DNA of 29,582 nt from positions 1-29,582 of IMG/VR virus record IMGVR_UViG_3300041964_000026, one strand, 5' to 3'. Within the stretch, counting starts at the first letter, position 1. The number at the start of each line of letters is the position of its first letter. This stretch comes from a virus. Positions 6,103 through 26,166 of this stretch are shown in pieces. Position numbers and translations under genes: made by a program. Under the pieces are notes generated by a model. It worked only from the letters and a program-made list of their open reading frames with translations, had not been told where the DNA came from and searched no databases.

Positions 6103-6428
6103 TGCGGCTCCCCGACCCGGTGGTCATCGTCCGCGGGCCGGTCAAGGATGCATTCGGGGACCTACCCGCCGATGGGGTGGCGGAGCGGTTCTGCACGCGG
6201 GGGGCGTACGCCGACGCGGGCACCTCCGAGGACGTCACCAGCCGCGGCGCCACCGTCTCCACCACCTCCACCCTCTATCTGCCGTTCGGGACGGACGTTG
6301 TCCGCACCGACCGGATCGAGGTCCGGGGGCGGGTGTGGGAGATCGACGGCGACCCGCAGCACTGGCGGTCCCCACTGACCGGCACCCCAGCGACCACGGT
6401 CGTCAACCTGCGCTCGGTGAGGGGATAG
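6099..6428 (+). CDS. Head closure / head-tail stopper protein
   Basis: A 109-residue, mostly beta protein. The order adaptor, stopper, Gp10-like, terminator is the common connector layout, and the VRTDRIEVRGRVWEIDGDP motif is the usual signature of small head-closure proteins. It starts at ATG 6099 (or ATG 6102), overlapping the previous stop by four bases, and ends at TAG 6426-6428. Assignment rests on the motif, size and position. Confidence 0.75.
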   Translation: MMRLPDPVVIVRGPVKDAFGDLPADGVAERFCTRGAYADAGTSEDVTSRGATVSTTSTLYLPFGTDVVRTDRIEVRGRVWEIDGDPQHWRSPLTGTPATTVVNLRSVRG

Positions 6429-6430
6429 CC

Positions 6431-6754
6431 GTGCCCGCACCACGTCTGCAGATCAACCAGGCCGGGGTCCGGCGGATCCTGCAGTCCACGGAGATGCAGC
6501 GCGCGGTGGGCCGGGTCGGTGAGGACATCGCCGGTCGGGTGCGGGCTGCGCTGCCGCTGCGGAGCACCCCCCAGGGTGCGCCGTACAGCGGCCTGGCGGT
6601 GCGGGTGGAAACCACACCCAACGGCGGGGTCCGCCGGGACCGGGCCATGGCCTCGGTGATCGTGGCCGCACCCGCCCCGGACGAGGTGCGGTTCCCCGAC
6701 CGACGGCTGCGGTTCGGGGTTGTGGCCCGCGTCGCGGGGGAGGTGTCGTCGTGA
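6431..6754 (+). CDS. HK97 gp10-like / minor tail completion protein
   Basis: A 107-residue basic protein starting at GTG 6431, two bases after the preceding stop. The N-terminal LQINQAGVRRILQSTEMQRA and helical VGEDIAGRVRAALP segment, followed by a beta region, resemble HK97 gp10-like head-tail proteins. It sits between the stopper and terminator genes. Its TGA (6752-6754) overlaps the next GTG (6751) in a GTGA junction. The assignment is mainly by position and general pattern. Confidence 0.7.
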   Translation: MPAPRLQINQAGVRRILQSTEMQRAVGRVGEDIAGRVRAALPLRSTPQGAPYSGLAVRVETTPNGGVRRDRAMASVIVAAPAPDEVRFPDRRLRFGVVARVAGEVSS

Positions 6755-7140
6755 CCGACCTGCTGGCGGCGTTCCCCGACGTGGAAGCCGAGGTACTGCC
6801 GGTGGTACTGGCCGGCATCCAGGGCGCCACCGTGGGCACGGAGACACCCGCCAGCTTCGACCGGTACATCCGGGCGTTGCGGACCGGCGGCACCGACGAC
6901 GGCATCACCGACTCCCCGATCGTCGCGGTCACCACGTACGCGCCGTCCCGGGCGGAGTCGATGGCGATGACCGCCGAAGCCGCACGCCGGATCCGGGCGG
7001 CGGCTGCCACCACCGCCGGCGGCGTGCTCATCGACTACACGTCGGTGTACACCGGCCCGCTCGAGCAGCCCGACCAGAACCCCGACATCCGCGCGGTCAC
7101 GACGTACTACGTGATCGAGTACCGACGACCGAGAGGCTGA
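6751..7140 (+). CDS. Tail terminator protein
   Basis: A 129-residue protein, predicted to cap the tail tube and set its end during assembly. It starts at GTG 6751 in a GTGA overlap. The first ~20 residues (TDLLAAFPDVEAEVLPVVLA) and the C-terminal YVIEYRRPRG strand fit the alpha/beta terminator fold. The gene directly precedes the major tail protein, as expected. It reads without break. Confidence 0.75.
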   Translation: MTDLLAAFPDVEAEVLPVVLAGIQGATVGTETPASFDRYIRALRTGGTDDGITDSPIVAVTTYAPSRAESMAMTAEAARRIRAAAATTAGGVLIDYTSVYTGPLEQPDQNPDIRAVTTYYVIEYRRPRG

Positions 7141-7142
7141 CC

Positions 7143-7802
7143 ATGCCCGACTTGACCGCACTCCAGACCAGGCAGCAGAGCCTGATCCGCAAGGCCCTGA
7201 ACGGCGGGGTGTGGGTGGCGCCGTACGCGACGACCAGCCCGACCGCGCTGACGTCGGGCGCCTCCGCGGACCCGCAGACGCTGCCCGTCGGCTTCCTCGA
7301 CGTCGGCTACATCCTCAAGGACGACGGCCTCACCTTCTCCCGGGCCATCGAGAACAGCGACACGGTGTCGTGGGGTGCGTCGGAGCCGACCCGTCGCGAC
7401 ATCACCTCCGACGTCGACACGGTCTCCTTCTCCATGCAGGAGACGAAGCGCGCGACGTTGGAGCTGTACCACGGCGTCAACCTCGCCGCGCTCACCCCCA
7501 CCGCCGTCACCGGCGAGGTGTCGTTCACGAAGGCCGTGTCCCCGCAGACGATCTACCGCCGGTTCATGGCGATCTGCCAGGACGGCGCCGGAACCGACGC
7601 CATCTACATCGGGCGCTACCACCCGCGCTGGTCGGTGACCGGCGTCGAGGACCTGCAGTGGACCGACGGCACCGAGATTCGCTACCGCGTCACCGGCACC
7701 GCGTTCGCGGACTCGGTGCTCGGATTTTCTACACGCTTCACATTCGGAGGTCCCGGATGGCGTAGCGCGCTCGTGTCGATGGGCTTCCCGGCCGTCGCCT
7801 GA
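7143..7802 (+). CDS. Major tail protein (tail tube)
   Basis: A 219-residue protein that polymerises into the tail tube. Signature-like parts are GFLDVGYILKDDGLTFSRA near residue 60, the WGASEPTRRDITSD stretch, and a C-terminal RFTFGGPGWRSALVSMGF motif commonly seen at the end of actinophage tail tube proteins. It starts at ATG 7143, two bases after the terminator stop, and is followed by the chaperone region, which fixes its identity. No frame break. Confidence 0.87.
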   Translation: MPDLTALQTRQQSLIRKALNGGVWVAPYATTSPTALTSGASADPQTLPVGFLDVGYILKDDGLTFSRAIENSDTVSWGASEPTRRDITSDVDTVSFSMQETKRATLELYHGVNLAALTPTAVTGEVSFTKAVSPQTIYRRFMAICQDGAGTDAIYIGRYHPRWSVTGVEDLQWTDGTEIRYRVTGTAFADSVLGFSTRFTFGGPGWRSALVSMGFPAVA

Positions 7803-8943: not shown

Positions 8944-11900
8944 GTGGCCACATACACGGCAGCCTCGGTCGCACTCAATTGCGTGCCGGACATGACCGGC
9001 TTCTTTGCGGAATTGGACGCGCGTATCCGCGGCTATTCTCCGCCGCCGATCCCGGGTCCGGACACTGGCCCACCGGACACCTCCGACACCGAGGAGGGCC
9101 TGGAGGACTCGGCCCGCAGCGGGGGGCTAGCTGCGGCTGCGGTCGCCGCCGGTGTGCTGATCGGTGCGGCACTGAGCTCGGCGATCGGGAGCGCGCTGGA
9201 CATGTCCAGCGCCCAGTCCCGGCTGGCCGCGCAGCTCGGCGACCAGAACATGATCGGTGCCGAGCGGGCGGGCAAGGTCGCGGCGAACCTGTACGCGGGC
9301 GCGTGGGGCTCGTCCCTGGGTGAGGTGTCCGACGCGGTGTCCATGGTGATCCGCTCGGGTGCAGTCGCCGCGGACGCCACAGATGAGCAGATCCAGGGCG
9401 TCACGGCCAGCGTGCTGGACCTGGCCGCGGCGTTCGACGTGGACACGGTGCAGGCCACCGCGGCGTTGTCGGCGATGGTACGCAACAACCTGGTGCCGAA
9501 CGCCGAGGCCGGCCTGGATGTGATCACCCGGCTGTACCAGACCCTCGGGCCCGGGGCTGAGGACGTCCTGGACACGTTCGAGGAGTACAGCAGCCAGTTC
9601 GCGAAGGTCGGGATCGACGCGCAGATCGCGGGTGGGCTGATCGCGCAGATGATGGAGGGCGGTGCGCGGTCCACCGACATCGCCGCGGACGCCATCAAGG
9701 AATTCTCGATCCGGTCGATCGACGGGTCGAAGACGACCATCGAGGCGTACAGCGCGATCGGTGTGAACGCGGACGAGATGCGACGTCGGATCGCGGCTGG
9801 TGGACCGGACGCGCAGGTCGCCATGTCGCAGGTCGTCGCGGCCCTGCAAGGGGTTGAGGACCCGGCGGTGCGCGCCGAGGCTGCGGTGGGCCTGTTCGGT
9901 ACACAGGCTGAGGATCTGGGTAACGCCCTGTTCGCGATGGACCCGGAGAACGCGGTGGCCACCCTCGGCGATGTTGAGGGTGCGGCAACCCGGATGGGTA
10001 CCACCCTGAACGACAACGCCACGGTGAAGATCACCGAGTTTCAGCGCGGCCTGGAGGTCGGGGTCGCGGGGATCATCAACGAGAACGTGATCCCGGCGGT
10101 CGAGGGCTTCCTGACCGCCATGGACGGCTTCCTCAGCATCCCCGGGGTTCCCGACGTGCTCGGGTTCATCTTCTCCGCCGGCGCCGGGATTGCGATCACA
10201 CTGGGCACCATCGCGGCCGTGACCAGGGCGTGGACCATCGCGCAAGCCGCGTTCAACATCGTGATGGGCCTGAGCCCCCTGACGATCGTGATCGTCACCC
10301 TGGCTGCGCTGGCGGGATGATGGTCTACGCCTACAACACGTCTGAGGATTTCCGGGTCATCGTCGACGGGGTGTTCGCCTGGGTCGGCGAGGCAGCCGGC
10401 AGGCTGAGTGCGGCCTGGTCCACGACGATGACGTCGATGGGCGCGATCCTGGGTTGGTTCCAGGACGCGGTCGGCCGGTTCGGCGCTGCCTGGGATCAGA
10501 CGATGCGTTCCTTCGCCGACATCGTCGGGTGGGCCGGGGGTGTGGTCGACTCGGTGTTCGCTTGGATCGGCGGCTCCGCGACCCGGTTCAGTGAGTCCTG
10601 GGCGCAGACGACGGACTCGATCAGCCGGATGTTCCGGGCGGTCGGGGACGGGTTCGTCTGGGTCTACGACAACATCATCAAGCCAATGTTCGACGGCTTC
10701 CTGCGCTTCGTCGGCGATGTGGTGCACGGGCTGGGTATCGCCTGGGGCGCGCTCAAGGAGGCGTTCATGGCGCCCGTGCGGTCGTCGTGGACGTCGTGTG
10801 GAACCAGGGCATCGGCGGGATCTGGAACAGCGCGAAGGGGCTGGGGATCCCGCTCGGGGACTTCCCGGTGGTCAAGTTCGCCACCGGTGGCCGGGTGCCC
10901 GGTCGCCGTGGACGGAAGGACGCGGACGACGTCCCGGCCCTGCTGACCGCGGACGAGTACGTCCAGCCGCGGGACGCCGTGGACTACTACGGCATGGGCA
11001 CGATGGAGGCGCTGCGGAAGCGGCGGATCCCGCGCGACGGCCTGGCTGCGTTGCAGTCGGGGGAGTACATCGACGGCGGCGACCACGACGGGCCCGGTGC
11101 CCGCAAGTCCGGGTTCGGTGGGGTGAAGCGCACGTCGCGATGGCCGGCCACCACCTGATGCGCAAGTACGGGATCAGCAGTGTGGGTGGGGTGGGGCAGC
11201 GCGCGAACGCGTCCGATCACCCGAAGGGACTGGCGCTGGACTTCATGGTCCGCGACTCCCGCGGCACCCAGCTCGCCAACGAGGTCATGGCCCAGGCGAA
11301 CCACTACGCCACGAAATACGCGATCTGGCGCCAGCAGATCAACAAGGGCAACGGTTGGGCGCGGATGGAGAACCGCGGCAACGACACCGCCAACCACTTC
11401 GACCACGTCCACGTGTCGTTCCACGGTGACCCGAACGCGGCAGCCCGCGGCAACCGCAGCGGCGGTGGGTCGTTCGACGACATGGAGTCGACGTCGTGGC
11501 TGGAGGACCTGCTGTCCGGCGCGTTCGACGGCTGGCCAACGGGGTCCGGTCGATGGTCGGGGCGGTCGCCCCGCGCACCGGGAACTTCATCGGCGACATG
11601 CCCATGGACTTCACCGACTGGGGCATCGCCAAGACCCGCGAGTTCCTGTTCGGCAAGGCCAAGGAGGAGGACTCGAAGGGCGCCGGCGGCGGGGACATGG
11701 GCGGGTCGGGAGTGGCGCGCTGGTCCAACATCGTCAGCTCCGCACTGCAGATGCTCGGCCAACCGCAGACCCTGGTTGCCACGACGTTGCGCCGGATGAA
11801 CCAGGAGTCCGGCGGCAACCCGCGGGCGATCAACAACTGGGATTCGAACGCGAAGCGCGGCACGCCCAGCAAGGGGTTGATGCAGGTCATCGACCCCACG

Positions 11901-12257
11901 TTCCGGGCGCATCGGGACCCGCGGGCGCCGAACGACATCTGGGACCCGATGGCCAACATCCTGGCGTCGATGAGGTACGCGTTGTCCCGGTACGGGGGCA
12001 GCCTGTCCAGGGCGTACGACCGCAAGGGCGGCTACGACGCGGGCGGTGCGCTCATGCCCGGCATCACGCAGGTGCACAACGGGTTGGGCCACAGCGAGAC
12101 GGTGATCCCCCTGCCCCCCGACCTGGTCAACAACCTGCTCCGCCAAGGCGGCGGCGGGCCGGCGGTGGCCATCGCCAACGCCACCTTCGCCGACCCGGTG
12201 GACGTGGACGTGCTCATGCAGCGCGCCAGCTACCTCGTCCAGGCCGGGAGGATGTGA
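8944..12257 (+). CDS. Tape measure protein with M15-like and SLT lytic domains (four frameshifts)
   Basis: The longest gene, about 1,100 residues, sets tail length. N-terminal residues 1-60 are polar. Then come Ala/Gly-rich hydrophobic segments (near 9120-9190 and 10130-10310) and a long helical region with MuF/TP901-type tape measure character. Trp-rich repeats (FAWVGEAAGR..., FAWIGGSATR...) follow at about 10370-10660. A putative M15/D-Ala-D-Ala carboxypeptidase-like domain lies at about 11150-11440, with HPKGLALDFMV (His 11218) and HFDHVHVSF. A soluble lytic transglycosylase-like domain lies at about 11760-12000, with MNQESGGNP (Glu 11805-11807) and GLMQVIDPTF. Single bases are missing at about 10314-10316, 10780, 11134 and 11532; each is followed by continuation in the next -1 frame. 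Start GTG 8944. Stop TGA 12255-12257. Confidence 0.87.
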
Positions 12258-12281
12258 CTCGTGAACCGTAGCGGGCGGGTC

Positions 12282-15796: not shown

Positions 15797-17658
15797 GCGC
15801 ACAGCTGATCCGGGTGGGGTGACCCGGCCCTCGCTGGCGCAGCTCACCGACGTCGAAGCAACCGCCACCGCCCCGACCGACACCCCGCTGTTGTGGCGGA
15901 AGGGTGTGGACGGGCAGTGGCGCCCGGAGCCGGCACCGCCGTTCGCGGAGGACGCCCCCGCCATCCTGGGGGAGCTCGCCGCGCACGAGGTCCGCCTGGA
16001 CGGGCACGACGAGGATTTGGACGCGAAGGCGAACATCGCCTCCCCGACGTTCACGGGCACCGTCGGCGGTGTCACTAAGGCGATGGTGGGGCTGGGCAGT
16101 GTCGCCAATCTCGCGCCAGCCGATCTCCCGGTCAGCACCGCGACTGCCGCTGCGATCGCCTCCGCGCCGGGGGCTGTCGCCTCGGTCAACGGCGCCACCG
16201 GCGCCGTGGTCCTCACCAAGGCCGACGTCGGGCTCGGGAACGTCACCAACACCTCCGACACTGCCAAGCCGGTGTCGACGGCCCAGCAGGCCGCGCTGGA
16301 CGCGAAGGCGCCCCTGGCGTCTCCCACGTTCACCCGGCACCGTTTCCGGCGTCACCAAGGCCCATGTCGGGCTCGGCAACGTCGCGGACACCGCCCCCGC
16401 CGACCTACCGGTCAGTTCGGCGCAACAGGCGGCGCTGAATACCCGCCTGGCAGGGGACCTGCTCACGCCGCCTCGGTACCGACGGACTTCCACGGAAGAC
16501 GATGCAGACGACGTTCCAATCCGGCCATGGCTGGACTGTCAACCTCGGCACATGGACCGCCGACACGGCGGACTACCAGCTCGGCTCCCAGTCCATCCGC
16601 GTCACCGCCCCAACACGGGACCGGGCAGACATACCGGCGACTCAACCAGCCAGCGCAGGACTTGACCAACCGCAAACTCGCGATGCTGGTCAAGGTTGAC
16701 CAGCCGACGAACCTGTTCCAGATCCAGATGTACTCGGCACTTCCTCCCTGTCCAACTTCATTCCCCTGATCGCAGGGGTAGGAGGGGTGCCAGCCAACGC
16801 CACCGTCCCTCCCAACGAATGGGTCTGGATTCATTTCTCCTGGGCCGACGCGGGTAGCATGGTGGGTACGGTCGACAAAACGGTCATCACCGACTGGCAA
16901 CTGCGGGTCGTCTCCCCAGCTGAAGCGACCGTCCGGCAACGGTGTGGTGCAACGCGATCGCCCACTACCCGAAGCCGACGACCTACCCCAACGGGGTCGT
17001 GTCGTTCGCGTTCGACGACAACTACATCAACCAGTACACGCTTGGCCGCCCCATCCTGGACGCTGTCGGTTTCGGCGCTACTGCGTTCGTGATCGTCGAG
17101 TCGTTGGGCTCGACAGGCTCCTTCATGACCCGCGCGCAGGTCGACGAGCTACAGGCGACGCACGGATGGGAGGTCGGCGGGCACGCCTTCACACGGCCGC
17201 GCACAACGCCGGGTTCACCACGCTCAGCGCCGCCGACCTGGAGACCGAGGTGCGGTCCCTGCGGGACTGGCTGCGCCGGGGCGCCTACAAGGGCGCCGAC
17301 CTGTTCGCGTACCCCCTCGGGGACGAGAACGCCGCAGTCCGCGGCAGTGTGGGGCAGTACTTCACGTTGGCCCGGCAGATCGTTCGCCGACCGCACCTGC
17401 CCGCCCATCTGGATCAACCGCTGCGGGTGCGGTCGCACTCCGTGTCGTCGTCAGACAGCTTGTCGACGATCCAAGGGGTCGTCGACAAGCGTACGAGAAT
17501 GGGACTTGGCTGATTCTTACGTTCCACCACCTCATCGCAGGAACTCCGACAGCCGGTACACAGTGGCCGTAGCCGATTTCCAGTCTCTTGTCACATACGT
17601 ACAGAACAAGGGTATCGCCGTCGAGACGGTCGGGCAGGTGCTCGACTCCCTGCGCTGA
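15793..17658 (+). CDS. Tail fibre with C-terminal NodB-type polysaccharide deacetylase (several frameshifts)
   Basis: About 620 residues. It starts at ATG 15793 (MSAQLIRVG) and shifts frame near 15820 (missing G in a G run). The shaft carries two fibre-type repeats, SPTFTGTVGGVTKAMVGLGS and SPTFT...SGVTKAHVGLGNVAD, with LPVST/LPVSS phrases. A lectin-like beta domain follows at about 16500-16940 (TFQSGHGWTVNLGTWTAD...). The C-terminal domain from about 16960 has carbohydrate esterase 4 signatures: SFAFDD (Asp-Asp 17014-17019), GGHAF followed by TAAHN (HxxxH region, about 17180-17205), FAYPLGDEN (about 17303-17330) and LTFHHLI (about 17517). It ends VGQVLDSLR, TGA 17656-17658. The likely role is host recognition plus removal of acetyl groups from a surface glycan. 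Breaks lie near 16330, 16450-16630, 16735, 16935, 17190, 17490 and 17570. Confidence 0.72.
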
Positions 17659-19631: not shown

Positions 19632-20261
19632 ATGCTGGACGAGCACCGATACCGGGGGCGCCACCGGGCACCCTCCACCGCCGGCCGCACCGCAGCCCGG
19701 GTCGTCACCGCAGGCATGGTCCTGACCGCCCCCACCGCACTGGCCGCCCCCGCCCTGGCCGCCTCGGACAGCACGTGGGACCGCCTCGCTCAGTGCGAGT
19801 CGGGCGGCAACTGGGCCATCAACACCGGCAACGGCTACTCGGGCGGGCTCCAGTTCCACCCACGCACCTGGACCGGCTTCGGCGGGGGAGAGTTCGCTTC
19901 GACCGCCCACCAGGCCAGCCGCGCCGAGCAGATCGTCGTCGCGGAGCGGGTCCTCGCCGGTCAGGGCTGGGGCGCGTGGCCTGCCTGCTCCCGCAAGCTC
20001 GGGCTGCGCGGTGAGGCCGCCGCCCCGCGCAGCGCACCGACTGCGGGAGCCCGCCGGTCCGCACCCGGCCCGGTCCCGTCCGGGCGTCACCGGGCAGCTG
20101 AGGGTGCCTCCCAGGACACGTACACGGTCCGGCGGGGCGACACCCTCGCCGAGATCGCCGCCGCCCACGGCGCCACCTGGCGGAATCTGTACGCCGCCAA
20201 TCGGGCCGTCGTCGAGAACCCCAACCGGATTTTCCCTGGTGAGCGGCTCAAGGTCGCATGA
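19632..20261 (+). CDS. Secreted Rpf-like transglycosylase with LysM domain
   Basis: A 209-residue protein starting at ATG 19632 after a GGGAGG box at 19620-19625. A signal peptide occupies about residues 20-44 (Arg-rich, then VVTAGMVLTAPTALAAPALA). The resuscitation-promoting-factor fold spans about 45-120: CESGGNW with the catalytic-type Glu56, GGLQFHPRTW, and the partner Cys119 (GWGAWPACS). A Ser/Ala/Pro linker leads to a LysM domain at about 163-208 (YTVRRGDTLAEIAAAHG...NRIFPGERLKV), which binds peptidoglycan. The enzyme would cleave the glycan strand from outside. This layout is common for chromosomal actinobacterial Rpf proteins. It overlaps the next gene by ATGA. Confidence 0.88.
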   Translation: MLDEHRYRGRHRAPSTAGRTAARVVTAGMVLTAPTALAAPALAASDSTWDRLAQCESGGNWAINTGNGYSGGLQFHPRTWTGFGGGEFASTAHQASRAEQIVVAERVLAGQGWGAWPACSRKLGLRGEAAAPRSAPTAGARRSAPGPVPSGRHRAAEGASQDTYTVRRGDTLAEIAAAHGATWRNLYAANRAVVENPNRIFPGERLKVA

Positions 20262-20833
20262 GCGGCGAGACCGAGACCAACGTCTCGGGATGGACGACAG
20301 ACACTCTGCGTGAGCATGTGCGGAGTCAGATCGATTCGACCCGCGGGGAACTCGCAGCCCACATCAGCGCCAGCCGCGCCGAGTTCACCGTGTACGTGGC
20401 CCTCCTCGACGAACGCGCCCTCAGTCAGACGACCGCGATGCACGCCGCCCTCACCGCATCCAAGGAGGCGATCAGTAAGGCCGAGGCGGCGGTGGAGAAG
20501 CGCCTCGACGGGATGAACGAATTCCGGGGCCAGCTCGCCGACCAGGCCGCCACTCTGATGCCCCGCAGTGAATCCGAGGGCGAACACCGCCGCCACAACG
20601 AACGCATTCAGGACCTCATGCTTGTCGTGGCCCGGCTGGTCACCCGCGAGGAATCGCAGGTGGGCATGGGTTCGCTCGCCGACAAGATCGACGCGCTGGC
20701 CACTCGCCTCGACAAGGCCGAAGGTCGCGGTGCCGGGCAGTCTGCCTCCTGGGGGTACCTCCTCGGCGCGGTCAGCCTCGTCGGCACCATCATCACGATC
20801 GTCGTAATCCTCGCCGCCAACGGCGTGTTTTAG
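20258..20833 (+). CDS. Coiled-coil protein with C-terminal membrane anchor (holin/antiholin-like candidate)
   Basis: A 191-residue protein starting at ATG 20258 (ATGA overlap). It is predominantly helical. Residues about 20-130 form coiled coil with the phrase MNEFRGQLADQAATLMPR, a recurrent signature in phage lysis-region proteins. A second coil near 140-155 (LADKIDALATRLDKAE) is followed by a C-terminal membrane helix (GYLLGAVSLVGTIITIVVIL, about 167-188). It has no signal peptide, so the coil is probably cytoplasmic. A holin or antiholin-like role is possible from position, but there is no direct evidence. Confidence 0.68.
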   Translation: MSGETETNVSGWTTDTLREHVRSQIDSTRGELAAHISASRAEFTVYVALLDERALSQTTAMHAALTASKEAISKAEAAVEKRLDGMNEFRGQLADQAATLMPRSESEGEHRRHNERIQDLMLVVARLVTREESQVGMGSLADKIDALATRLDKAEGRGAGQSASWGYLLGAVSLVGTIITIVVILAANGVF

Positions 20834-20835
20834 AG

Positions 20836-21564
20836 GTGGCCGGCCGACACCGCAAACCTCGCCAGGCCGGTCTGCCGCCCCTCCTGGCGGCTCTGGCATC
20901 TGTCGCCGCCCTCGGGATGACCTTCGCGATGGTCCAGCCCGCCACGGTCGTGGACGACGTCCCGCCGCCGCCGGAGCCTGCCATGCAGACCACCACCCCC
21001 CGGCCCACCCCACGGCCGGCACCGTCGGCTGCGCCGGCGATGCAGATGCCGCCCGTCGTGCTGACGATCAAGCCGCTCCCGACGACGGCGAAGCCCACCC
21101 CGGCACCCGCACCGACCACGGCGCCGACCCCTGAACCTGAGCCGGAGCCCGCACCGGAGTCGACCGAGGCCCCGAAGCCTCCTCTGGAACGGAAGGTCGC
21201 CCGGCCGCTCGCCCCCGAGGTTCCCACGATCCCGGAGGCTCCCGCTGCCAGCGCGAAGTGCCGCGGCCTGCGCGTTGCCGACCAGGTCCAGCGGGCCTGC
21301 GACCTCATCGTCGCGGCCGTCCCCGGCATCGGGGCCATCGGCGGGCGCGCCGCCCGCCCGAACAACCCCACCAGTTGCCACCCCAAGGGCCTGGCCCTGG
21401 ACTTCATGGTCAACGGCAGCGGGCGCAACGACAAGGCACTCGGCGACCGCATCTACGCCTTCATTCAGGCCAACAGGGACCTGCTGGGTGTGACGACGCT
21501 GCTGTGGCGGACCGCCGACCACTACGACCACATCCACGCGAGCTTCGCGCCGTGCCACCACTGA
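20836..21564 (+). CDS. Secreted M15/D,D-carboxypeptidase-like protein with long Pro-rich linker
   Basis: A 242-residue protein starting at GTG 20836, two bases after the previous stop. The N-terminus is basic then hydrophobic (LLAALASVAALGMTFAMVQP, residues 16-35): a signal anchor or signal peptide. Residues about 42-135 are a Pro/Thr/Glu-rich, probably wall-spanning linker. The C-terminal domain (about 142-242) has CHPKGLALDFMV (His182, Asp189) and HYDHIHASF (His232, His234), the zinc-site arrangement of VanY/M15-like peptidases. Cys142, Cys155, Cys181 and Cys240 may form disulfides. The HPKGLALDFMV block is identical to one in the tape measure protein. Confidence 0.78.
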   Translation: MAGRHRKPRQAGLPPLLAALASVAALGMTFAMVQPATVVDDVPPPPEPAMQTTTPRPTPRPAPSAAPAMQMPPVVLTIKPLPTTAKPTPAPAPTTAPTPEPEPEPAPESTEAPKPPLERKVARPLAPEVPTIPEAPAASAKCRGLRVADQVQRACDLIVAAVPGIGAIGGRAARPNNPTSCHPKGLALDFMVNGSGRNDKALGDRIYAFIQANRDLLGVTTLLWRTADHYDHIHASFAPCHH

Positions 21565-21575
21565 TGGGAGCTCCC

Positions 21576-22574
21576 GTGCGTCGTACCGCTGCACTCCTGG
21601 TCGCCGCGCTGGCCTGCGCTGGCGCGCTCGCCGCCTGCGAGTCGGGAGCCCCGCCGATCCCGCGACCGACGTTCACGAAGTCTGCTGTGCCGCCGGTACC
21701 TCCCCACACCGTCACGCCGTCACCGACCACGACCGCGTCCATGCCGTCGATCACCGTGATCCGGCCGCCGACCACGACCCGACCGGCCCCCACGACCACG
21801 CGGGCTCCCACCACGACGGTTTCGCCCACCCCGACACCCGCACCCACCACCGTCAGGCCGCCTCCGGTCAACACAGAGGCAGCTGTACGGCTCTCCTGGG
21901 GCACACCGATCGCGGGGGAGACCGACGAGTTCAACTACACCGGGCGTCCCGACACGGCCCGCTGGACGCTGCCATCGGCCGGGTGCTGGCCAGGGCACGC
22001 TGGCAACGGGCGCCGCTGCCCCGACCGCGCCACCGTCAACGGGACGGCGCTCGTCCTGACCGGTCTCGCCAACGGCGACACCGCCTGGATCGCCGGGAAC
22101 ACCGACCGGCAGTACGGGCGGTGGGAGGCCCGCATCCGGTCCTCCGAAACCGGACCCGGCAACCACTCCTACCACGTGTTGGCACTCATCTGGCCGAGCT
22201 CCGAGCGGTGGCCCCACGACGGCGAATACGACTGGTTCGAGATCGACCGCCCCGGGCAGGCATGCGCGGTCGCGTTCCTCCACTACCCCCACCCTCCCGG
22301 CCCCGTCCAGCAAGAGCAGGCCCGGGAAACGAACTGCGGCGCCCCGCTCAGCGAGTGGACGAATGTGGCTTTCGAGTGGGCCCCCGCCGGAGTGGCCGGC
22401 TACCTCGACGGCGTCCAGTGGTTCCGCTACTCCGGCGGCGCCGGACCCGGCGGACGCGGCGCGATCCAGTCGATGCCGTCTGGCCACCTGAATTTCCAGG
22501 TTGACAACTTCCACGGCTCCGGGATGCGCCCCGCGCAGCTTGAGGTCGACTGGCTGCGTTCCTACCGCCCCTGA
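21576..22574 (+). CDS. Lipoprotein glycoside hydrolase, GH16-like
   Basis: A 332-residue protein from GTG 21576 with a GGGAG box at 21567-21571; ATG 21564, overlapping the previous stop, adds four residues. The N-terminus (RRTAALLVAALACAG) ends in a lipobox LAAC (Cys21), predicting lipid attachment. Residues about 25-105 are a Pro/Thr-rich linker. The C-terminal domain contains EYDWFE (Glu217, Asp219, Glu222), the ExDxxE catalytic pattern of GH16 beta-glucanases, agarases and related enzymes, with flanking YGRWEARIRSSETGPGN and WPSSERWPHDG. The last strand, QLEVDWLRSYRP, is also family-like. The substrate cannot be told from sequence. Paired with the preceding M15-like gene. Confidence 0.78.
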   Translation: MRRTAALLVAALACAGALAACESGAPPIPRPTFTKSAVPPVPPHTVTPSPTTTASMPSITVIRPPTTTRPAPTTTRAPTTTVSPTPTPAPTTVRPPPVNTEAAVRLSWGTPIAGETDEFNYTGRPDTARWTLPSAGCWPGHAGNGRRCPDRATVNGTALVLTGLANGDTAWIAGNTDRQYGRWEARIRSSETGPGNHSYHVLALIWPSSERWPHDGEYDWFEIDRPGQACAVAFLHYPHPPGPVQQEQARETNCGAPLSEWTNVAFEWAPAGVAGYLDGVQWFRYSGGAGPGGRGAIQSMPSGHLNFQVDNFHGSGMRPAQLEVDWLRSYRP

Positions 22575-22642: not shown

Positions 22643-22933
22643 ATGTCCGACGACCCGCGCCCGAAAATCTACGACGAGATGGTCGACCTGGCCCGCCGCG
22701 CCGGAACCGCAGCCCCTGGCGGTCTCCGCTACGGGCAGGAGCCGGCCCTGACGCAGGTCCCCACCCCGTACCGCCGCCAGCCAGGTGGGCGCGTCACCTA
22801 CGCAGGCCACGTCGACTGGTCCGGAGAGAACGACGACCTCGTCACCGCCACCTGGAACGGCCTACGCCCCGCCGACGCCTCCCTGCCTCAGCCCCCGCAA
22901 GACCCCGATTGGACACCCGATGCCGATCGCTGA
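22643..22933 (+). CDS. Small hypothetical protein of the lysis cassette
   Basis: A 96-residue protein from ATG 22643 with GGAGGA at 22631-22636. It is charged and Pro-rich, with KIYDEMVDLARRAGTAAP near the N-terminus and RVTYAGHVDWSGENDD in the middle. No signal peptide or membrane segment. It overlaps the endolysin start by 14 bases, so it is probably co-translated with it. Function not recognised. Confidence 0.65.
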   Translation: MSDDPRPKIYDEMVDLARRAGTAAPGGLRYGQEPALTQVPTPYRRQPGGRVTYAGHVDWSGENDDLVTATWNGLRPADASLPQPPQDPDWTPDADR

Positions 22934-23894
22934 GGACGTCCTCCGCGTCGCCCGCGCCGAACTCGGGTACCGCGAGGGCACCAACAACGCCAACAAGTAC
23001 GGCGCCGCGTACGGCATGAACAACGTGGCCTGGTGCATGCAGTTCTGCTGGTGGGTCTTCCGCGAAGCGGGCGCCTCCAGCCTGATCCACCCGAAGACGG
23101 CGTACACCCCGACCGCCGCCAGCTGGCACCGCGCCCGCGGCACCTTCAGTACCACCCCGCGCGTCGGGAGCCTGGTGTTCTTCGACTGGCCGGACAGCGT
23201 CCACCGCATCCAGCACGTCGGCATCGTTGAGGTCGTCGAGGCGAACGCCGTTGTGGTCATCGAGGGCAACACCCAGTCGGGGACCGCAGGTAACCAGTCC
23301 GATGGCGGCGGGGTGTGTCGCCGCCGCCGAGCGCGGAACTCGTCCATCGCCGGCTACGGCCACCCCGCCTACACCACGTCCGCAGCCCGCGCCCCATCCG
23401 TAGCCATCACGGCACGCCCCGCCGCAGCCCGCACCGCAGCCCCCGGAGGTTTCCTCATGGCCCTGTCCGACGCCGAGCAGGCCGAGGCCCTCGCGCTGCT
23501 CCGCACCCTCAACGCCCAGATCACCGGCGACGTCGACGGCGCCGGCCCCGACGGCTGGGGCTGGCCGAGCTGGCGTTACGGCCCCGACCACGGCAAGCCC
23601 ATCACCCCCGTCGACATGCTCCGCACCGTCGACGCCGCCGTCGCGTCCCCGCTGGACCTCACCGGCCGCCCCGGGAAGGACTCCGACAACCTGTTCGGGC
23701 ATGTCCTGTCGATGCGCGCCGAGCTCCGCCAGCTGAGTGCCGACCTGGCGAAGCGCATCACCGCCGTGGAGACGGCCCTCGCCAACGCCGGTGTCGACCC
23801 CGACCTGGTCCGCAAAGCGTTCACCTCGGCGTTCGGCGCCGGGCTGACGATCACCGGTGTGGCCACGCCGGCGAACCTCTCGAAGGGGAACTGA
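22920..23894 (+). CDS. Endolysin with CHAP domain
   Basis: A 324-residue protein from ATG 22920. The N-terminal CHAP domain (about residues 1-150) would cleave peptidoglycan as an amidase or endopeptidase. Catalytic-type residues are Cys39 (NVAWCMQFCWWVF), His99 (RIQHVGIVE) and the EGN motif (Glu115, Asn117). A basic stretch follows near 130-140, then an Ala/Pro linker. The C-terminal region (about 180-324) has GWGWPSWRYGPDHGKP and helical heptads (LFGHVLSMRAELRQLSADL). It probably serves for wall or partner binding. No signal peptide, so it needs a holin. It precedes a membrane protein at 23896, as in standard lysis cassettes. Confidence 0.85.
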   Translation: MPIAEDVLRVARAELGYREGTNNANKYGAAYGMNNVAWCMQFCWWVFREAGASSLIHPKTAYTPTAASWHRARGTFSTTPRVGSLVFFDWPDSVHRIQHVGIVEVVEANAVVVIEGNTQSGTAGNQSDGGGVCRRRRARNSSIAGYGHPAYTTSAARAPSVAITARPAAARTAAPGGFLMALSDAEQAEALALLRTLNAQITGDVDGAGPDGWGWPSWRYGPDHGKPITPVDMLRTVDAAVASPLDLTGRPGKDSDNLFGHVLSMRAELRQLSADLAKRITAVETALANAGVDPDLVRKAFTSAFGAGLTITGVATPANLSKGN

Positions 23895-23895
23895 C

Positions 23896-24294
23896 ATGAC
23901 CGCACCCACCTCACCCGTCCTCATCTTCGGCCGGGAGCCGGCCGTCCTCGCCGAGCTGGTCGCCGCGATCCTCATCGCGGTGAACCTGTTCCTGCTGCCC
24001 GACTTCAACACGGTCCTGCAGGGAGCCATCAACGCCGTGGTCGTCGCAGCTGCGTCGATCTACGTGGCGTTCAAGGTGCGCTCCGAGAACCTCCTCCCGC
24101 TGCTCCTGGGCGGATTCAAGGTGCTGGTGGCCCTGTTCGTCGCGTTCGGCGTCAACTGGGACGACGGGCAGCAGGCCGCAGCGCTGGGTCTCGCGGCGAT
24201 CGTCGCGGGCCTGTTCGTCCGCACCCAGGCCACCGCACCGGTCGCGTCAGACGGCACAGTCGTCGCCACCGTCGGCCGCCACGCCGCCGCCTGA
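23896..24294 (+). CDS. Multi-pass membrane protein, probable holin
   Basis: A 132-residue protein from ATG 23896, one base after the endolysin stop. Hydrophobic stretches include LAELVAAILIAVNLFLLPDF (about 18-37), AINAVVVAAASIYVAFKV (about 44-61), LLLGGFKVLVALFVAFGV (about 69-86) and AALGLAAIVAGLFV (about 93-106), suggesting up to four helices. The C-terminus is polar. Position right after the CHAP endolysin makes it the strongest holin candidate in the window, though other membrane proteins in the cassette compete for that role. Confidence 0.7.
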   Translation: MTAPTSPVLIFGREPAVLAELVAAILIAVNLFLLPDFNTVLQGAINAVVVAAASIYVAFKVRSENLLPLLLGGFKVLVALFVAFGVNWDDGQQAAALGLAAIVAGLFVRTQATAPVASDGTVVATVGRHAAA

Positions 24295-25899: not shown

Positions 25900-25941
25900 G
25901 TGATCCGCCCAAACAAGTCTCACACCGTCGCACGCCTCTGC

Positions 25942-25947
25942 TATCCT
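25942..25947 (+). promoter_or_regulatory. Rightward -10 box, leaderless type, divergent from the leftward promoter
   Basis: TATCCT fits TANNNT and ends six bases before ATG 25954. No convincing -35 is visible at the right distance, so an activator or extended element may be needed. Confidence 0.55.
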
Positions 25948-25953
25948 CGGCGC

Positions 25954-26166
25954 ATGGAAGACGACCCGCTGCTCCCCATCACGGCAGCCGCCCGCAAGGC
26001 GGGCGTGTCCCGCGCGACCGTGTGGCGGATGGTGTCCTCCGGGCAGCTCGCCCCGCACGACCGCACCCCCGGCGGGCACCTCCGCTTCCGGGCCGGGCAG
26101 TTGTCCCGGGAGTTCGCGGCGATCCGCGCAGCGCGGATCGCCACCCCCAATAGGGAGACGCCGTGA
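25954..26166 (+). CDS. BldC/excisionase-like winged-helix DNA-binding protein
   Basis: A 70-residue protein from ATG 25954. ITAAARKAGVSRATVWRMVS forms the helix-turn-helix, and the GQLAPHDRTPGGHLRFRAGQ stretch forms the wing, the MerR-superfamily arrangement of BldC, excisionases and recombination directionality factors. It lacks an effector domain. It may regulate the divergent promoter pair at 25871-25947 or act as an excisionase; no integrase is in the window to decide. Starts on a leaderless-type promoter and overlaps the next gene by GTGA. Confidence 0.78.
   Translation: MEDDPLLPITAAARKAGVSRATVWRMVSSGQLAPHDRTPGGHLRFRAGQLSREFAAIRAARIATPNRETP

Follow-up and report, generated by a model that had tools for sequence, protein, structure and literature searches.

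Organization of the GH16-like lipoprotein gene

The window, meaning the whole stretch of 29,582 bases analyzed here and identical with a linear IMG/VR virus record, encodes on its plus strand a putative stalked lipoprotein with a glycoside hydrolase family 16 (GH16) domain. The gene and its parts are as follows.

21566 to 21570, + strand: Shine-Dalgarno-like GGGAG, five bases 5' of the GTG, read from the sequence
21576 to 22574, + strand: GH16-like lipoprotein gene, GTG start, 332 amino acids, intact open reading frame (ORF)
21576 to 21635, + strand: Sec/lipoprotein signal peptide, residues 1 to 20, matching the G+LPP pattern
21636 to 21638, + strand: lipobox cysteine C21 (LAA-C), predicted lipid anchor by the G+LPP pattern
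21639 to 21872, + strand: Pro/Thr/Ser-rich stalk, residues 22 to 99 (78 amino acids, 64% Pro, Thr, and Ser)
21873 to 22571, + strand: GH16 catalytic domain, residues 100 to 332, by profile, predicted fold, and structure alignment
22224 to 22241, + strand: catalytic ExDxxE with E217 (nucleophile), D219, and E222 (acid/base), invariant in 40 of 40 relatives

An alternative start is possible at an in-frame ATG at position 21564, which overlaps the TGA of the preceding gene. A scan for promoters and terminators was uninformative, and no promoter was recognized for the gene. The signal peptide, MRRTAALLVAALACAGALAA, carries two arginines (RR) in its n-region and runs directly into C21. Of the 1,021 candidate starts in the window, just 3 fit the Gram-positive lipoprotein pattern G+LPP, each of them in this gene; the lipobox is therefore more than a chance resemblance, and the LAAC lipobox proposed by the initial annotation is a canonical one. 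The long Pro/Thr stalk described there is likewise present, with 23 Pro, 21 Thr, and 6 Ser among its 78 residues. The ExDxxE pattern needs more care: without further constraint, E.D..E is present in 5 of the 304 window ORFs and is thus weak when taken alone, while the GH16-style motif [GA]E[YILVF]D..E is found in the GH16-like ORF only.

The phage contig and its probable host

Genes for terminase, portal, capsid, tape-measure, tail-fiber, endolysin, and holin proteins are all present in the window. The terminase, portal, capsid, tape measure, and tail fibers identify a tailed phage, and the capsid, with 48 to 55% identity to proteins of Arthrobacter phages, Gordonia phages, and one unassigned phage from human feces, identifies the window as a fragment of an actinophage, as the initial annotation had supposed. 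No near relative was found among sequenced phages, which cover about 1% of the first 25 kb, and no close capsid relative was found in 62 Pseudonocardia genomes (best, 41%). Since the capsid lacks such a relative, the host genus is not proved; we infer from the GH16 relatives described below that the host was a Pseudonocardia-like soil actinobacterium.

Some structural genes are split. The portal gene (positions 544 to 2809) matches phrog_104 at positions 38 to 269 and then, in another frame, at 269 to 491, and the tape-measure region (8944 to 12271) is also divided over frames, which suggests that either the contig contains indel errors or the frameshifts are genuine. Despite these apparent frameshifts, the GH16 ORF is unbroken and can be aligned with its relatives over the full length. 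A temperate lifestyle is hinted at by a small ORF at 25900 to 26166, which matches families of MerR-like regulators and excisionases. Among the tail-fiber genes, positions 16942 to 17658 give a weak polysaccharide deacetylase match (PF01522; E value, 5e-4) below the cut-off.

Assignment to GH16

Searched by itself, the protein matched nothing in Pfam, PHROGs, or NCBIfam, PF00722 included, and a single-sequence search of the PDB gave no credible match. Among direct searches with the window protein, the scan of bacterial genomes alone opened the family, returning eight relatives of 52 to 60% amino acid identity, one of them from Rhodococcus rhodnii and the other seven from Pseudonocardiaceae. 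Six relatives were scanned against PF00722, four of which scored above the cut-off and two just below it, and 9 of 12 members of an alignment match this model. A profile of eight domains retrieved the laminarinase 3iln from the PDB (E value, 8e-12) together with other GH16 enzymes. In the sequence E217-Y-D219-W-F-E222, E217 aligns with the leading glutamate of the motif in SCLam, a residue that is serine in the E144S mutant entries.

A concanavalin-like beta-jelly-roll fold is predicted by an AlphaFold2 model built from 12 sequences (pLDDT, 88; pTM, 0.88). VIA-align superimposes 211 residues of the model on ZgLamA (4bq1) with a Z score of 22.7 and a root mean square deviation of 2.9, the Z score to 3iln is 22.6, and Foldseek finds SCLam at an E value of 2e-12. 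The initial annotation had named structure prediction as the check on its GH16 call, which a fold lacking the two catalytic glutamates would contradict; both are in place in the model, on one strand together with D219. Reached through relatives and a model, membership of the window protein in GH16 is secure on these sequence and predicted-structure grounds.

The EXDXXE sequence is the beta-bulge form of the GH16 catalytic motif (PMC6827312). For subfamily GH16_3, a pattern WPA...WXX...WPX has been described that is conserved largely, but not strictly (PMC6827312). The window protein has the WPX (in RWPHDGE) and a tryptophan in LIW, and it has YHV near the position of the WPA of 3iln. The initial annotation had called for a subfamily assignment; the domain may be placed near GH16_3. 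The initial annotation also listed beta-1,3/1,4-glucans, agarose, and carrageenan among the substrates of GH16 enzymes; the nearest solved structures of the domain are mostly endo-beta-1,3-glucanases.

Relatives in phages, prophages, and host genomes

The initial annotation had also proposed looking for homologues in other actinophages. No relative was found in 50,697 GenBank phage records, where searches with a tail-fused and with an unsignaled relative were empty as well, and a scan of viral contigs with the single window protein found none. Profile scans of the IMG/VR viral contigs yielded five loci and then six, and further copies lie in Pseudonocardia prophages, so that homologues do exist in uncultivated viral contigs and in prophages. 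Cellular copies are abundant: GH16 paralogues occur in 54 of 60 Pseudonocardia genomes, with up to 13 copies each, and a strong match was obtained in 35 of 297 Pseudonocardiaceae genomes. Some paralogues, annotated as GH16, are carried on plasmids of fungus-growing-ant symbionts. No obvious polysaccharide-synthesis cluster from which a substrate might be deduced was seen near four chromosomal host copies, whose neighborhoods were read by eye. Within the open-licence literature, we found no relevant paper on phage GH16 lipoproteins.

The best genome match (L009) lies within a prophage of Pseudonocardia asaccharolytica, where minor-tail genes are followed by genes for an Rpf-LysM protein, the GH16 lipoprotein, a sortase lipoprotein, and an amidase. 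A stretch of P. asaccharolytica prophage (L119) matches eight window genes in the same order, from the head region through the Rpf gene, which is one of the eight; the GH16 gene follows the Rpf gene, and the M15-like gene of the window is missing. In an IMG/VR contig (L016), an Rpf-LysM gene immediately precedes one for a GH16 lipoprotein whose lipobox is again LAAC. Prophage module L111 comprises GH16, Rpf, M15-like, and sortase lipoprotein genes, and L112 comprises sortase lipoprotein, GH16, and Rpf-NlpC genes. The last-named L112 protein (6391 to 7629, - strand) combines an Rpf-type transglycosylase with an NlpC/P60 peptidase.

Elsewhere the domain is fused to tail proteins. In the IMG/VR loci L017/L018 and L019, GH16 makes up the C-terminal part of a large protein of the tail (L017:4608-8687 and L019:5091-8702), and L011 is likewise tail fused; these are likely virion depolymerases. 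L016 and L018 are parts of one 25-kb contig, IMGVR_UViG_3300009991_000015, which therefore holds a lipoprotein copy as well as a tail-fused copy.

Signal sequences were called on 51 different homologues with a simple pattern, which leaves a few calls doubtful (e.g., L017, L008, L079, and L080). Only the window and L016 copies have a strict lipobox, to which L009 adds a loose form (LTVAC); the signals of most host copies are of the ordinary Sec type without a clear lipobox. The L111 and L112 copies have a plain signal peptide, are presumably secreted, and have no lipobox, and the L034/L113 copy, from the IMG/VR scans, has no signal. Five of the six free-standing phage and prophage copies are thus predicted to be exported and three to be lipid anchored, and lipid anchoring is not universal. 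In the gene tree, in which the window row was left out of the phage rows and change counts serve as a guide only, the phage copies do not form one resolved clade.

Genomic neighborhood

The genes surrounding the GH16 gene include several for predicted wall-cutting and lysis proteins.

19632 to 20261, + strand: exported Rpf-type transglycosylase with LysM (PF06737; E value, 7e-35; PF01476; E value, 4e-10)
20258 to 20833, + strand: coiled-coil protein with a C-terminal hydrophobic segment, by translation; no family above cut-off
20836 to 21564, + strand: protein with an N-terminal hydrophobic anchor, Pro-rich stalk, and C-terminal M15-like motif (HPxGxxxD ... DHxH; phrog_8240; E value, 2e-4)
22785 to 23894, + strand: CHAP endolysin (PF05257; E value, 1e-12; phrog_21357; E value, 2e-33)
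23857 to 24294, + strand: holin (phrog_9752; E value, 1e-17)

NCBIfam Rpf models match the first of these proteins below their cut-offs. The M15-like protein has no Pfam match and has a homologue in prophage L111; a second M15-like peptidase domain lies in the tape-measure region (11167 to 11436). The true start of the endolysin is probably inside its ORF. The GH16 gene is on the same strand, between the Rpf and M15-like genes upstream and the CHAP endolysin and holin genes downstream, and this packing suggests that it would be expressed late.

The Rpf-adjacent context of free-standing phage GH16 copies is a new observation with respect to the initial annotation. An Rpf domain is encoded within about 2 kb in all six cases (the window, L016, L111, L112, L113, and L015, the free-standing copy from the 55-kb P. 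asaccharolytica prophage) and at none of the 18 chromosomal Pseudonocardia loci (L093 to L110), a contrast to be read as a pattern and not as a clean statistic because the loci are related. Often, free-standing copies also have a gene for a sortase lipoprotein or an M15-like peptidase close by, with endolysin and holin genes in the vicinity. Among other Rpf loci surveyed, with the window left out, few lipoproteins were found beside Rpf outside Pseudonocardia-type loci.

Sortase-domain lipoproteins (PF04203; E value, about 1e-20) are encoded at L009:7658-8206 (+ strand), L111:3169-3720 (- strand), and L112:8417-8977 (- strand), and they belong to the exported-enzyme module in all three of these Pseudonocardia prophages. 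A sortase lipoprotein gene is also found near an Rpf gene in IMG/VR contig L021.

Proposed role in envelope opening and progeny release

The initial annotation envisaged display of the enzyme on the outer membrane face of the infected cell, a location not supported by the closest relatives, which are in Pseudonocardia and other Pseudonocardiaceae. Pseudonocardia and other Pseudonocardiaceae have no mycolic acids, and the lipoprotein would therefore sit on the cytoplasmic membrane with its stalk crossing the wall. The initial annotation also took the enzyme to be unnecessary for ordinary lysis, yet its gene stands between those for exported wall enzymes and those for the endolysin and holin.

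We propose that the protein is made from the late region of the actinophage genome, exported by Sec, lipidated on C21, and anchored on the outer leaflet of the cytoplasmic membrane, from which the 78-residue stalk (roughly 20 to 25 nm if extended) would take the catalytic domain through the wall. There it would form part of a set of exported envelope enzymes, with the Rpf-LysM transglycosylase and the stalked M15-like peptidase, beside the CHAP endolysin and the holin. It would cut a beta-linked surface or extracellular glycan of the Pseudonocardia-like host, so that this layer no longer blocked lysis and the release of progeny, and tethering would confine the glycanase activity to the infected cell. 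The joint reading, to which we give slightly less than an even chance, is that the domain is a catalytically competent GH16 endo-glycanase, with a predicted fold closest to those of beta-1,3-glucanases, and that the lipoprotein is a late, membrane-tethered glycanase aiding envelope opening at lysis and progeny release. Regarding the substrate, the same domain on tail proteins of related phages suggests a host-surface glycan; the many GH16 paralogues secreted by the hosts indicate that the substrate may instead be environmental (fungal or plant) and not the host's own surface. More tentatively still, and with appreciable doubt, we suggest that Rpf transglycosylases, stalked or lipid-anchored GH16 proteins, M15-like peptidases, and sortase lipoproteins form a conserved exported envelope-remodeling module in phages of Pseudonocardia-type actinobacteria that acts outside the membrane before or at lysis. 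In monoderm actinobacteria, the tethered GH16 would then add a further step to lysis, directed against a surface glycan and not against peptidoglycan.

The main rival to the release role is removal of the phage receptor, in which the tethered GH16, like a receptor-destroying enzyme, would strip infected or lysogenic cells of the glycan recognized by GH16-bearing tails and so block both superinfection and the sticking of progeny to the producing cell and its debris. Phage-encoded lipoproteins that act in superinfection exclusion are known from other phages, and the tail-fused domains of L017/L018, L019, and L011 speak for this reading, as does the contig with both a tail-fused (L018) and a lipoprotein (L016) copy. 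However, a single GH16 domain was found in the window, its late position beside lysis genes is ill-suited to lysogen immunity, and its exported partners are peptidoglycan enzymes; we consider receptor removal unlikely, if the strongest of the alternatives. The late position, between wall-enzyme and endolysin genes, also argues against lysogenic conversion, by which a prophage would supply an additional surface-held glucanase with which to feed on or attack fungal or plant beta-glucans. Such a role would suit the GH16 paralogues of Pseudonocardia, mostly with signal peptides where examined, and those on symbiont plasmids, but the prophage copies adjoin tail and Rpf genes and the hosts already hold up to 13 copies of their own, and this explanation appears rather improbable.

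The failure of the phage copies to group in the tree would allow several captures and hence a gene acquired from the host at random that serves no conserved function in phages. Against such captures stand the Rpf neighbor and the retained catalytic residues in six of six free-standing phage copies, five of which are exported by prediction, and we regard this possibility as improbable to a greater degree than conversion. Least probable is a lectin-like surface protein of GH16 fold that binds without cutting: GH16 members without catalytic residues do exist (PMC6827312), and the window protein itself misses the Pfam GH16 model, but the three catalytic acidic residues are invariant in all 40 relatives.

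Phage GH16 domains are expected on tails, as depolymerases. In the window, a predicted lipid-anchored stalk would instead place the domain on the infected cell itself, its gene adjoining those for wall cleavage and lysis, and prophages show comparable arrangements. Should the role in release be correct, phages of mycolate-free actinobacteria would have a lysis protein directed against a layer other than peptidoglycan, and a beta-linked glycan on the surface of these hosts would be indicated.

Comparison with known systems

With the GH16_3 endo-beta-1,3(4)-glucanases (3iln from Rhodothermus, ZgLamA 4bq1, and SCLam 6xof), the window protein has in common the jelly-roll fold (Z score, about 22), the EXDXXE beta-bulge, and the WPX loop before the motif (PMC6827312). 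It differs from these laminarinases in its low identity (about 16 to 22% in structure alignments), in YHV in place of WPA, and in being a phage-encoded, stalked lipoprotein. The secreted GH16 proteins of Pseudonocardia and other Pseudonocardiaceae are closer, with 52 to 63% identity over the whole domain, the same catalytic motif, and often a Pro-rich linker; in contrast to the window protein, they have a plain Sec signal with no convincing lipobox, are chromosomal, and have no Rpf neighbor at the 18 loci. The single characterized viral GH16, that of chlorovirus PBCV-1, is near GH16_3 and has glucanase activity (PMC6827312). Both proteins are virus encoded, a likeness drawn from description and not from sequence, but PBCV-1 is a virus of a eukaryotic alga.

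A purely functional analogy can be drawn with phage lysis cassettes that include the mycobacteriophage LysB or spanins, in which an additional protein for a non-peptidoglycan envelope layer is likewise encoded near the endolysin and holin. The window protein differs from LysB and spanins in fold and presumed substrate, and it would act as a membrane-tethered glycanase. The superinfection-exclusion lipoproteins of phages are also phage encoded and located on the cell surface; whereas those proteins are known to block by binding, the window protein has an intact predicted glycanase active site.
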